DNA of 64,000 nt from Antrihabitans auranticaus. GTDB taxonomy: Bacteria > Actinomycetota > Actinomycetes > Mycobacteriales > Mycobacteriaceae. Position 1 is the stretch's first letter; each line of letters opens with the position of its first letter. This document shows positions 54,068-60,549 of the stretch, piece by piece. The notes below the pieces were generated by a model, which did not search any database, was not told where the DNA came from, and was given only the letters and a program-made list of their open reading frames with translations. Made by a program: the position numbers and the translations under genes. Location: contig NZ_JAEMNW010000001.1 of assembly GCF_016481275.1 (NCBI RefSeq), positions 496,001 through 560,000 on the forward strand. The letters run 5' to 3'.

Positions 54068-56881
54068 TCAGCTGTGTGAATAGAGCTCCGGCTCGAAGTT
54101 TCGCGTCTTGTACCAGTACTCGAACGTGAAGCTGGGCCACAACGTGCGGTTCTTCCCGAATTCGTCGAGATACCAGCTCTTGCAGCCACCCGCCGACCAG
54201 ACTGCGTCGTCGAGACGTTCCTGCAATGCATCGTTGAATTCGCGCTGCGCTTCGGGTTTGACGTCCAGCGAATCGAGTCCGTCTTCGCCGAGCATCGAAA
54301 TGCCCTGCAGCGCATAGTTCACCTGCGACTCGATCATGAAGATGATCGACGTGTGCCCTAGCCCGGTGTTCGGTCCGAGAAGCAGGAAGAAGTTGGGGAA
54401 GCCGTTGACGGAGACGCCGAGGTAGGCCTCCATCCCCGTGTCCTTCCACGAATCGCGGATCTCCACGCCACCCTTGCCGACCACCTGCATCGGACCGATC
54501 GGGTCCGACACATGGAAACCGGTGCCGTAGATGATGGCGTCGGCGTGCCGCTCGATTCCGTCGTCGGTAACGATGCCGTGCTCGGTGACTTCGGCGATTC
54601 CGTCCGTGATCACCTCGACGTTGTCGCGGTTGAGCGCTGGGTAGTACTCGTCCGACATCAGAATGCGCTTGCAGCCGAGCGTGTAGTCGGGCGTCACTTT
54701 CTTGCGCAGCTCCGGATCGTCGATCGAGCTGTCGATGTAGCGCCTGGCAAAGACTTCCGCCAGTTTCATCGCGCGCGGATCGACCGCAAGACCGAGCACG
54801 CGCGCTTCCATCCACACATAGATGCCACTACGTGCGACGCGTTGCGCGAGCGGGACCGCCGACAGAATCTTCTGCTCCAGCTTGCTCATCTTTCGGTCGG
54901 GCTTGGACATGACCCAGGGCGGCGTCCGCTGGTAAAGATTGAGCTGCTTGACCTTCGGTGCAATCTGCGGCACGAACTGGATCGCTGACGCGCCGGTCCC
55001 GACCACCGCGACCGTCTTACCCTCGAAGTCGTAGTCGTGGTCCCAGCGCGCCGAGTGAAAAGCGTTGCCCGCAAACCGCTCGACACCCTCGAGCTTCGGA
55101 TACGCGGGGATGCTCAGGGCGCCGACCGCGGAGATCACCGCCTTCGCGGTGGTGACCTGCCCGTCGCGGGTGGTGACGCGCCAGTACTGGCGCGCATCGT
55201 CCCATTCGATTCGAACGACCTCGGCGCCGAGCCGCAGGTGCGGCCGCAGCTGATACTTGTCGGCGCAATGCCTTTGGTACTCCCAGATTTCGGCTTGCGG
55301 CGCGAACATGCGGGACCAGTTCGGATTCGGTTCGAAGGAGAACGAATACAGGTGCGACGGCACATCGCAGGCGCAACCCGGGTAGACGTTGTCGCGCCAC
55401 GTGCCACCGATCTCGTCGGCCTTCTCGAACAGAACGAACTTGTTGACGCCCGCTTCCTTCAGCTTGATCGCGGCGCACAGGCCCGCAAACCCGCCACCCA
55501 CGATGGCTACCCGATACTCCGCTTGGATCGGTGCCGACACCGTCAACTCCGGTCGGCTCTGCGTTGCCGCCGGCTTGTTTGCGACGGCACCGAGCTGGTC
55601 CAGCAGGAGGTCTGTGAATTCCTCCGCAGCCTCGGCGTCGAACTGCTCGAACAGGAATCGCACGGCGAGGTGCAACGACCCCGCGACCGTCACCGCGCCG
55701 ACGCTGACGCCGATCGGCAACGCGGCGGGTGGTGAATGGTAGATCTCCGTTGGACCCTCGCCGTCGAAGTACGGTGCAACCGGGATCCGGCCGAGGTTCG
55801 ACAGCACCGAACTGTCGACCAGTCGATTCCCGGTCAGTGGCAACAGCGACGGCAGCGCCCGTTTCAGACTCACCGGCACGCGATTTCCGATGTTCACGAG
55901 GTCGAACAATCCGGCCGCCTCCTGCGCACGACGGACCGGTTCGGTCTGTACCGCGACCGCCGCGGTCGCCATCGCGAGGTCCTTGCGATCGCGCGCATCG
56001 GTCGAGATCGAGGACATCGACGTGTAGTTGCCGACGCCGTCCCAGAACCAGTCACTCGGGCGCGTATTCACCGGCGCCATCACGGAGATCCGCCCGGATT
56101 CCTTGCCGTGGGCGGTATTCCAGCGATCGATCGTCACGTGCAGTGCTGCGATGAGCACGTCGTTCAACGTTGCCCGATCTGGTCGGTTCGCCTGCAATCG
56201 CTCCGTCTGCTCGGCGCTCAATTGGCGGGTGACGACGCGGCAGCCCGGCCGCTCCGACTCCCCTTGCGCCGCAACGCGAGAAGGCCCCCGCAGGCCGTCG
56301 GCCAGCCGGGACGCACTGCGCAGAGCACGGGTGGTCCACTCGCGCCAATCCGTCGCCGAAAGATGACGCTCGAGCGCACGCGCGTCCTCGATGGCCAGCG
56401 AATCAGCAGGATCCTCCACGCCCCGATAGAAATTCGCGACCGACTGAACGAACCGATACGCGGCGATGCTGTCGAAAGCAACATTGCTGAAGCTGAACAA
56501 CACCGTGTCGCCGCTGTCTCGCCGCGCAAGCACGACCCGGAACGACGGCGAAAGGCTCAACGGGATGGGCGCACTCAGCAGATTGGTGCGGATCTCGGCG
56601 AGACGCTCGTCGTCGGGACAATCGACCGCACTGACCGGATCCAGGTCGACCGTGTCCGGGACGAGCCATTCGTAAGAACTGTCGAGCCGTCCCCAGTCCT
56701 GCAGGCGCGCGCGAGCGAGTGGATGGCGGGCCGCGGCGGCCGAGGTGGCCGAATCGAGCCGGTCGAGATCGAGCGAACCCGTCGCACCGACTTCGAACTG
56801 TATGTTCCACGGGCTCGTCGCGCGCTCGAGGTGATAAACGGCCTCTTCGAACTCTCTGAATCGAAATGTCTTCGTCGACAT
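54068..56881 (-). CDS. Fusion of a degenerate PapA/condensation-like domain with a BVMO-type flavin monooxygenase
   Basis: 937 residues in one frame. Residues 1 to about 435 look like CoA-dependent acyltransferases (PapA/WES/condensation): YHLERATSPWNIQFEV, NDVLIAALHVTIDRWN, APVNTRP and NLGRIPV. The HHxxxDG site is replaced by FSNVAFDSIAA, so the catalytic His is missing. From about 455 a complete FMO follows: YRVAIVGGGFAGLCAAIKL, the BVMO fingerprint FAGNAFHSARWDHD, and second GxGxxG VAVVGTGASA. It may make or process esters/ketones, with the first domain as a binding or scaffold part. Convergent with nadE. Alternative: two proteins if an internal start is used. Confidence 0.85.
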   Translation of the reverse strand: MSTKTFRFREFEEAVYHLERATSPWNIQFEVGATGSLDLDRLDSATSAAAARHPLARARLQDWGRLDSSYEWLVPDTVDLDPVSAVDCPDDERLAEIRTNLLSAPIPLSLSPSFRVVLARRDSGDTVLFSFSNVAFDSIAAYRFVQSVANFYRGVEDPADSLAIEDARALERHLSATDWREWTTRALRSASRLADGLRGPSRVAAQGESERPGCRVVTRQLSAEQTERLQANRPDRATLNDVLIAALHVTIDRWNTAHGKESGRISVMAPVNTRPSDWFWDGVGNYTSMSSISTDARDRKDLAMATAAVAVQTEPVRRAQEAAGLFDLVNIGNRVPVSLKRALPSLLPLTGNRLVDSSVLSNLGRIPVAPYFDGEGPTEIYHSPPAALPIGVSVGAVTVAGSLHLAVRFLFEQFDAEAAEEFTDLLLDQLGAVANKPAATQSRPELTVSAPIQAEYRVAIVGGGFAGLCAAIKLKEAGVNKFVLFEKADEIGGTWRDNVYPGCACDVPSHLYSFSFEPNPNWSRMFAPQAEIWEYQRHCADKYQLRPHLRLGAEVVRIEWDDARQYWRVTTRDGQVTTAKAVISAVGALSIPAYPKLEGVERFAGNAFHSARWDHDYDFEGKTVAVVGTGASAIQFVPQIAPKVKQLNLYQRTPPWVMSKPDRKMSKLEQKILSAVPLAQRVARSGIYVWMEARVLGLAVDPRAMKLAEVFARRYIDSSIDDPELRKKVTPDYTLGCKRILMSDEYYPALNRDNVEVITDGIAEVTEHGIVTDDGIERHADAIIYGTGFHVSDPIGPMQVVGKGGVEIRDSWKDTGMEAYLGVSVNGFPNFFLLLGPNTGLGHTSIIFMIESQVNYALQGISMLGEDGLDSLDVKPEAQREFNDALQERLDDAVWSAGGCKSWYLDEFGKNRTLWPSFTFEYWYKTRNFEPELYSHS

Positions 56882-58393: not shown

Positions 58394-59575
58394 ATGACCC
58401 GTCGAACAGTGGCCGAGTACGCGAGCCACATCACTCGACTGCTACGTCCGCTCGAACAGCTGCCGACGGAGGACGTGCCACTCCGGTCCGCGATAGGCCG
58501 GCTGCTGGCGGCCGACGTGACGTCGCCGCTCGACTTACCGCTGTTTCGCAACTCGCAGATGGACGGCTTCGCTGTCGACGCAGCGTCGGTGGTCGAGGTT
58601 CCCGCACGGCTCACCGTTCGCGCCACGATCGCGGCGGGCGACGCCGGACTCGGCGCGCACGTGCCTGGTACCGCGACCCGAATCATGACCGGTGCGCCGA
58701 TGCCACCTGGTGCGGACTGCGTCGTTCCGGTGGAGGACACCGCGGCCGATGGCGACACGGTCGTCATCCGGCGTGGGCGGGTCGCAGGCGAGTTCGTCCG
58801 GGAACCAGGAACCGATGTCGGTGCCGGTTCACTACTACTTCCCGCGGGTGCGTTGCTTGCGCCTCGCCACATCGCAGTGTTCGCAGCGGTCGGCATCCAG
58901 ACGGTGACGGTCCGGCGCCGGGTGCGCGCAGCCGTCATCACGACGGGCACCGAGCTGATTCCCGCCGGAAACACATTGGGCCCCGGCCAGATCTACGACT
59001 CGAACGGCATCGCCCTCGCTACGAGTCTCGAAGCGAACGGTGTCGAGGTCGTTTCGGTCGGGCACAGCAGCGACGACCCCGCCGAATTTCGCAAGTTGCT
59101 CGACGCCGCAACCGAATCCGCCGACCTCGTCGTCACGTCCGGCGGTGTGTCGATGGGCGATTTCGAGGTCGTCAAGGATGTGCTGGTTCCCCTCGGCGGC
59201 GAATTCGGCCATGTCGCAATGCAACCCGGCGGGCCGCAGGGCTCGACCGTCGTCGACGGCATTCCCGTCCTCAGTTTTCCGGGCAACCCGGTCAGCACGC
59301 TCGTGTCGTTCGAGGTCTTTGCCCGGCCGATTCTGCGCCGCTGCGCCGGCCTGCCGCCGATCGTTGCCGAAGAACTTGTGCTGTCGCATCCGGTGACATC
59401 GGTTGCCAAACGGCAGTTTCTGCGTGGCCGCCGGTTGGGCGACAAGGTCGAGGTGGTTTCGGGTCCCGGATCGCATCTGATCGCGGCCATGGCATGGGCC
59501 GATGTCCTGATAGACATTCCGGCGGAGGTACTTTCGGTCGACGCCGGATCCGAAGTGAAGGTGTGGGCGCTATGA
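58394..59575 (+). CDS. moeA: Molybdopterin molybdotransferase
   Basis: 393 residues. MoeA signatures: [58 protein letters not shown] and LPGNPVST-type [12 protein letters not shown]. Inserts molybdate into adenylated molybdopterin. The stop overlaps the next start (ATGA). First gene of moeA-moaC/mogA-moaE. Confidence 0.96.
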
Positions 59576-60549
59576 CCGAACTGTCGCACGTAGACGGGGA
59601 AGGGCGCGCCCGGATGGTCGACGTCAGCGCCAAAGCCGACTCGGCGCGCACCGCGGTAGCGGCCGGTGAGTTGCAGACGACAGCCGAAGTCGTTGCGCTG
59701 GTGCAGGCCGACGGGATGCCCAAGGCGGACGTGCTCTCGACCGCGCGCATCGCGGGCATCAGCGGGGCCAAGAAGACGTCGGAACTGATTCCGCTCTGCC
59801 ACCAACTCGCACTGTCGTCGGTGCAGGTCACCTTCGGGTTCACGGCGACCACGATCACGATCGAAGCGACCGCAAAGACCAAGGGTCCCACAGGCGTCGA
59901 GATGGAAGCACTGACCGCAGTTGCCGTCGCCGGCCTCACGTTGCACGACATGGTGAAGGCGGTCGACCCGGCTGCAACCCTGAACGGAGTGCGACTCCTC
60001 ACCAAAGATGGTGGTAAGCGCGGACATTGGACGCGTGCGACGGCTGACGTGGCCCCACTCGATCCACGCTCGGCGGTGGTTCTGGTCGCTTCGACGGGCA
60101 CGGCGCGCGGCACCAGGACCGACACGACCGGTCCCGCAATCGCCGAATGGCTTACAGGACAAGGTTTCTCGGTGCGCGGACCCCTCGTCTATGCCGACTC
60201 CGATATTGCCGAGGGCCTTGCAGATGCATTGACCGGCGGGCCTGCATTGGTTGTCAGCACCGGCGGCACCGGCGCCTCCCCTACCGACCGGACCCCCGAA
60301 GCGACACTCGCCGCCCTCGATCGCGAGTTGCCGGGCGTCGCCGAGGCGATTCGCCAACGCGGCACAGCGAAGTTCCCGAACGCAGCACTGAGCCGCGGGG
60401 TCGCAGGTTTGGCCGGCCGCACGGTCGTCGTGAATCTGCCCGGCTCAACCGGCGGTGTCCGGGACGGACTCGCCGTTCTCGAACCAATCCTCGACCACCT
60501 GCTCGAGCAGGTCGCTGGACGGGGCGCGCACGAGGAGGTCACGCCGTGA
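59572..60549 (+). CDS. MoaC-MogA/MoaB fusion protein
   Basis: 325 residues. Residues 1-160 are MoaC: MVDVSAKADSARTAVA, LIPLCHQLALSSVQV (active-site His region), GVEMEALTAVAVAGLTLHDM. From about 165 a MogA/MoaB domain: SAVVLVASTGTARGTRTDTTG, VVSTGGTGASPTDRTPEAT. Combines cyclic pyranopterin monophosphate synthesis with MPT adenylylation. ATG overlaps the moeA stop; its own stop overlaps moaE (GTGA). Confidence 0.92.
   Translation: MTELSHVDGEGRARMVDVSAKADSARTAVAAGELQTTAEVVALVQADGMPKADVLSTARIAGISGAKKTSELIPLCHQLALSSVQVTFGFTATTITIEATAKTKGPTGVEMEALTAVAVAGLTLHDMVKAVDPAATLNGVRLLTKDGGKRGHWTRATADVAPLDPRSAVVLVASTGTARGTRTDTTGPAIAEWLTGQGFSVRGPLVYADSDIAEGLADALTGGPALVVSTGGTGASPTDRTPEATLAALDRELPGVAEAIRQRGTAKFPNAALSRGVAGLAGRTVVVNLPGSTGGVRDGLAVLEPILDHLLEQVAGRGAHEEVTP

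Follow-up and report, generated by a model that had tools for sequence, protein, structure and literature searches.

In the window (the whole 64,000-nucleotide stretch of Antrihabitans auranticaus DNA that we analysed, contig positions 496001-560000), one minus-strand gene encodes a condensation/acyltransferase-fold domain and a type I Baeyer-Villiger-type monooxygenase (BVMO) domain, separated by a short linker (Table 1). The frame opens with an ATG at position 56881, ends with the stop codon at 54068-54070 and translates to 937 amino acids, congruent with the initial annotation, which had described a single 937-codon frame here and left the strand unstated. Both halves are recognized by Pfam, with no further domains found, rendering the product a two-domain protein. 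Among the NCBIfam profiles, none of the best 25 of 98 families reaches its cut-off with this protein.

Table 1. Features of the fusion gene and its upstream region (positions in the window; residues of the fusion protein)
Feature	Position	Strand	Basis
Fusion gene, 937 codons plus stop	54068..56881	minus	Pfam match to both halves; full-length counterpart in a second species
Condensation/acyltransferase-fold domain, residues 1-430	55592..56881	minus	PF00668 above cut-off; alignment with stand-alone relatives
SNVAFDS in the HHxxxDG column, residues 132-138	56468..56488	minus	Alignment
Short variable linker, residues 431-453	55523..55591	minus	dN/dS 0.46; length difference
Type I Baeyer-Villiger-type monooxygenase domain, residues 454-934	54080..55522	minus	PF00743; phmmer to 3gwd
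First dinucleotide-binding motif GGGFAG, residues 462-467	55481..55498	minus	Translation and alignment
BVMO fingerprint FAGNAFHSARWD, residues 603-614	55040..55075	minus	Translation and alignment
Second dinucleotide-binding motif GTGASA, residues 628-633	54983..55000	minus	Translation and alignment
Possible operator: 17-base inverted repeat GATCCG-N5-CGGATC shortly before the start codon	56894..56910	minus	Sequence of both species

The gene is also present in Antrihabitans stalagmiti, where a full-length fusion aligns with query residues 1-935 at 79% identity, contains no stops and likewise reads SNVAFDS. With this counterpart and a dN/dS well below one in both domains, the whole frame stands above chance. 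Two related actinobacteria hold, in one chain, a predicted ketone-to-ester-type oxygenase and an apparently dead acyltransferase-like domain. Among the matches listed, the fusion is carried by two of the four Antrihabitans genomes examined; the other two show nothing beyond a stand-alone relative of the N-terminal domain in G003 (31% identity) and a weak partial match in G002. Relatives of this domain at E 1e-10 were detected in 13 of 401 genomes of the family and 6 of 397 of the order, two partly shared samples with the window's own genome among their members, and, with the family profile at E 1e-15, in 11 of 396 genomes of the phylum; at most four candidates per genome were scored in these searches. 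A scan of genome_contigs with patterns of the N-terminal domain returned A. stalagmiti YC3-6 (NZ_JAEMNV010000002.1) as the sole relative, and viral_contigs yielded no further sequences. Plasmid records gave no match to the N-terminal domain, and in the 993 matching records no place spans 80% of the fusion.

The Condensation model (PF00668) covers residues 18-329 with 47.5 bits against a cut-off of 30.6 and spans most of the N-terminal domain, placing it in the condensation / CoA-dependent acyltransferase superfamily. Among solved structures, the family profile of the domain matches NRPS condensation domains and PapA5 (8s6l). PapA_C (PF16911) attains 13.9 bits, below its cut-off of 30, and WS_DGAT_cat is absent from the 18 Pfam families listed at E up to 1. 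Of the earlier designation as a PapA/WES/condensation-type fold, the condensation part is therefore right, whereas PapA and wax ester synthase/DGAT apply only loosely. Stand-alone condensation/PapA-like relatives from Actinomycetota measure 420-461 amino acids and share 27-40% identity with the domain (tblastn); they belong to the same family over its entire length and were aligned with it in 21 rows. The Condensation cut-off is passed by 8 of 10 relatives, L056 falling below it and L082 showing no match. In a 31-row tree the fused pair groups together with 100/100 support on a stem of 0.84, and its link to the 18 Mycobacteriales rows has a support of only 87/78.

At the HHxxxDG position the alignment confirms the proposed SNVAFDS (S132-N133-V134-A135-F136-D137-S138), such that Asn133 takes the place of the catalytic histidine and Asp137 is retained; both fused proteins read S-N-x-x-x-D-S in this column. 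Motif columns were counted on all 29 stand-alone rows, 28 of which cover the motif, L131 being gapped there. The stand-alone motif is [HN]HxxxD[GA]: the first position is His in 21 and Asn in 7 of the 28 rows (L081, L125, L126, L128, L130, L132, L134), and the glycine column holds Gly in 25 and Ala in 3. The second, catalytic histidine is invariant in these stand-alone rows (28/28) and Asn in both fused rows, and its loss is thus specific to the fused form, while the Asp137 column is Asp in all 30 rows, 28 stand-alone and two fused. Neither fused protein possesses the second histidine that marks an active condensation/PapA-type acyltransferase.

The remainder of the domain is well preserved. 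Conservation reaches 95% or more in 35 columns of 25 stand-alone rows, and 31 of these columns are unchanged in both fused rows, a count that leaves out four of the 29 stand-alone rows (L131 as partial, L132-L134 as distant). Arg143 and Asp137, near the lost histidine, are among the retained family-invariant positions. The four changed columns correspond to D12E, H133N and G236R, plus F382H, the last confined to the window protein. As a leave-one-out control, single stand-alone rows lose 0 to 9 conserved positions (L130 9/33, L081 4/37, L070 4/36), and none loses the histidine. Thus, it is not the number of losses that is unusual in the fused pair, but which position was lost.

Turning to the C-terminal half, the FMO-like model (PF00743) matches residues 457-794 with 72.8 bits against a cut-off of 22, and phmmer connects this half to cyclohexanone monooxygenase 3gwd at E 5.2e-72; among solved structures, cyclohexanone, steroid and phenylacetone monooxygenases come closest. 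In BVMOs the fingerprint FxGxxxHxxxW[P/D] lies between two dinucleotide-binding motifs, and catalytic roles in the family belong to the Asp of YPGxxxD and the Arg of CKR. Along with the FMO-like fold, both GxGxxG/A motifs of type I BVMOs are present, FAGNAFHSARWD aligns with the fingerprint FEGETIHTAAWP of cyclohexanone monooxygenase, and the two catalytic residues are retained as D506 and R739 when aligned to that enzyme. Hence, the earlier description as a complete BVMO-type enzyme with its fingerprint is sustained in the sense of an intact-looking type I BVMO half. Among the matches listed, the nearest stand-alone oxygenase sequences are only 50-56% identical, and in a 40-row oxygenase tree the fused pair sits alone on a stem of 0.63 within an 18-row group (98/97). 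An AlphaFold2 model, computed from two sequences only, has a mean pLDDT of 28.2, too low to reveal a pocket or an interface.

The known type I BVMOs of the cyclohexanone, steroid and phenylacetone monooxygenase kind share the FMO-like match, both dinucleotide motifs and the fingerprint with the C-terminal half, but the solved ones listed, at 537-655 amino acids, are without the condensation-fold domain that the fusion possesses. Congruent with the initial remark that no such system was described, we found no described protein combining a condensation fold with a BVMO in the open-access literature, among the matches listed.

The fusion occupies the same chromosomal place in both carriers. In the window genome and in A. 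stalagmiti the order is moaE, moaC-mog and moeA, then in the opposite direction moaA-moaD, followed by the fusion, nadE and a fructosamine-kinase-like gene, with the fusion running in the direction of moaA-moaD and a local order of moaD-fusion-nadE. In G003 only 8 bases and no other feature separate the moaD and nadE matches, and in G002 the kinase-like gene comes next after moaD, without the fusion; a fixed site has therefore either acquired the fusion or lost it. A role in molybdenum-cofactor synthesis is not favoured, considering that G003 has the same neighbours and G002 has moa genes, both without the fusion. A scan of ten flanking genes showed molybdenum-cofactor, NAD synthase, sugar-related and other functions; none of the ten encodes a carrier protein, PKS, NRPS or lipid function, and the neighbourhood thus lends no support to a lipid or CoA/ACP-bound substrate. 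Two further features of this region were recorded. MoaC is fused to a mog-type molybdopterin-binding domain (325 amino acids, 59572-60549, plus strand), likewise in A. stalagmiti (G001), G002 and G003 (tblastn). For nadE of the type found in the other three Antrihabitans genomes, G002 yields no hit at E 0.001, and the gene is absent from the syntenic place.

The surroundings of unfused relatives were also inspected. An origin by conversion of two adjoining genes into one was looked for there and not found: no oxygenase relative appears in 29 neighbourhoods of stand-alone N-domain relatives (17 at E 1e-8, 12 at E 1e-6; 4.7 to 18 kb long, in some cases reaching to one side only where a contig ended), and no N-domain relative in eight neighbourhoods of unfused oxygenase relatives (L101, L102, L118-L123). 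Among 20 scanned genes beside stand-alone relatives, lipid functions are suggested by some (WS/DGAT, AMP-binding, MMPL, lipase) and not by others. L071 adjoins WS/DGAT, acyl-activating enzyme and methyltransferase genes, L080 MMPL and amine-oxidase-type genes, L065 a P450 and a PPDK-type enzyme, and L070 a secretory lipase; elsewhere regulators, a glutamate-synthase-type gene, DUF1702 and others were observed. In Burkholderia arboris an unfused oxygenase relative precedes genes for a short-chain dehydrogenase, a PF10118 hydrolase and an alpha/beta hydrolase, a set that fits the expected route from alcohol to ketone to ester cleavage. As a clue to the substrate, the operon context of unfused relatives is mixed and only suggestive.

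Aggregated, the loss of the catalytic residue and the retention of nearly all other conserved positions suggest that the dead half has come to hold or recruit something for the live half. The C-terminal half would operate as an FAD/NADPH/O2-dependent Baeyer-Villiger-type oxygenase, most likely turning a lipophilic ketone into an ester. The N-terminal half, devoid of its catalytic histidine, would have lost acyl transfer, and its intact fold may keep a substrate (as such, carrier-bound or CoA-bound) or a partner protein beside the oxygenase. That the pseudo-acyltransferase domain is retained to bind or recruit a substrate, carrier or partner for a type I BVMO in the same chain is a reading to which we give an even chance, judging from sequence conservation and from analogy. 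The lipophilic ketone is a guess, prompted by the downstream genes in Burkholderia and by AlmA, another flavoprotein monooxygenase of group B with a reported BVMO activity on aliphatic ketones, which is likened to the oxygenase half by description only and, in the accessible portion of its report, is not described as fused (PMC12449030).

The analogy is with the X-domain of glycopeptide synthetases, a condensation fold in which HHxxxDG has become HRxxxDE and which is reported to be inactive and to bind P450s, delivering them to the peptide on its carrier (PMC6565677). The fused N-terminal domain resembles this oxygenase recruiter in combining a condensation fold with a mutated HHxxxDG, here SNVAFDS; however, the X-domain is housed inside an NRPS, behind a carrier domain and with separate P450s, whereas the 937-residue, two-domain fusion has a flavin oxygenase in its own chain and no NRPS adjoining. 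Against 4tx2, which we take to be the teicoplanin X-domain, the family profile of the N-terminal domain scores only E 0.29, so the likeness is an analogy of working and not of descent. A more specific version, which we advance tentatively and would not presume, is that the acyltransferase fold serves as a binding pseudoenzyme presenting a carrier-, CoA- or lipid-bound ketone to the BVMO of the same chain; it might then represent an independent flavin counterpart of the X-domain/P450 pair that arose within one genus.

Alternatively, the N-terminal domain could be a structural passenger that aids folding, solubility or oligomerisation of the oxygenase and has no ligand of its own, which we regard as unlikely while taking it seriously. 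The linker is indeed short and free to vary, differing by three residues in length between the two species, no partner is visible in the neighbourhood, and the domain evolves at roughly double the pace of the oxygenase (dN 0.187 vs 0.097). On the other hand, a spacer would hardly need most of the family-invariant positions, Asp137 and Arg143 included. Furthermore, dN/dS between the two species is 0.153 for residues 1-430, 0.46 for the linker (23 codons) and 0.077 for residues 454-934, as obtained from Nei-Gojobori counts with Jukes-Cantor correction at a dS of about 1.2, which is near saturation. Reference genes of the same species pair give 0.116 (moaA), 0.117 (nadE) and 0.175 (moeA), and as the value of the N-terminal domain lies amid these, it does not seem to be decaying as a dead passenger. 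Purifying selection thus looks to act on both halves, the dead domain apparently being maintained about as well as a cofactor-synthesis enzyme, with the linker loose.

The domain might also still be an enzyme, with altered chemistry, making the protein bifunctional and acting for instance on the ester or alcohol of the oxygenase. Heterocyclisation domains are condensation folds that work without HHxxxDG, having DxxxxDxxS instead, and Asp137 is retained in the fused domain; however, the corresponding stretch reads SNVAFDSIA, with Ser first and Ala last, rather than the heterocyclisation motif. Considering also that the exchange of the catalytic histidine for asparagine separates both fused proteins from every stand-alone row covering the motif, we find this improbable.

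Two separate proteins might arise from the one frame through an internal start near codon 448, leaving the oxygenase to work alone; an internal start with separate proteins, at no stated codon, was a possibility raised already in the initial annotation. In the window a GGAG stands a few bases upstream of GTG448, but the matching residue of A. stalagmiti is a serine, hence GTG448 is not a conserved start. Moreover, neither species has an in-frame ATG between codons 380 and 520, and the frame is unbroken in both. No conserved internal start was thus found, and we consider this explanation very improbable.

An assembly error, a concern raised at the outset, or a decaying pseudogene is in practice ruled out: although only two of the four Antrihabitans genomes carry the fusion, the independently sequenced A. 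stalagmiti has the same junction and neighbours in a stop-free counterpart, and dN/dS is far below one.

Should the N-terminal domain bind or recruit for the oxygenase as we propose, the joining of a dead condensation fold to oxygenase control, already known from glycopeptide synthetases with a separate P450, would have arisen again, this time with a Baeyer-Villiger oxygenase. It would then offer a small soluble model for how a dead acyltransferase selects the substrate of an oxygenase, and could help to steer industrially used BVMOs towards carrier- or lipid-bound substrates. Were the dead half a mere spacer, the protein would be a lineage-specific fusion of modest interest.

The upstream region is conserved in a local manner. 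Of the last 40 bases before the fusion ATG, 33 are identical between the two species (3 to 12 of 40 in offset controls), and the intergenic stretch farther upstream varies in length, with 112 and 72 bases. The 40 bases include GATCCG-N5-CGGATC, of which either genome has a single exact copy. Permitting up to two mismatches, the repeat is found at 15 and 16 places, against 1 and 0 for a backward control, which may be biased low because it contains CTAG. The fusion looks to have its own putative promoter/operator.

Additional oxygenase-type genes were observed in these genomes. Across the moa cluster from its fusion, A. stalagmiti carries another BVMO-type gene, unfused and 48% identical to the fused oxygenase (L048, 15045-16814, minus strand); the window shows no such gene at that place. 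In the corresponding region of G002, beyond moaE, residues 344-451 of the oxygenase query find a match of 33% (L092, 13283-13522) that is possibly a remnant or a distant flavoenzyme. The window genome (6.5 Mb) holds a large oxygenase repertoire, with 33 FMO-like matches at E 0.001, 32 of them above the family cut-off.
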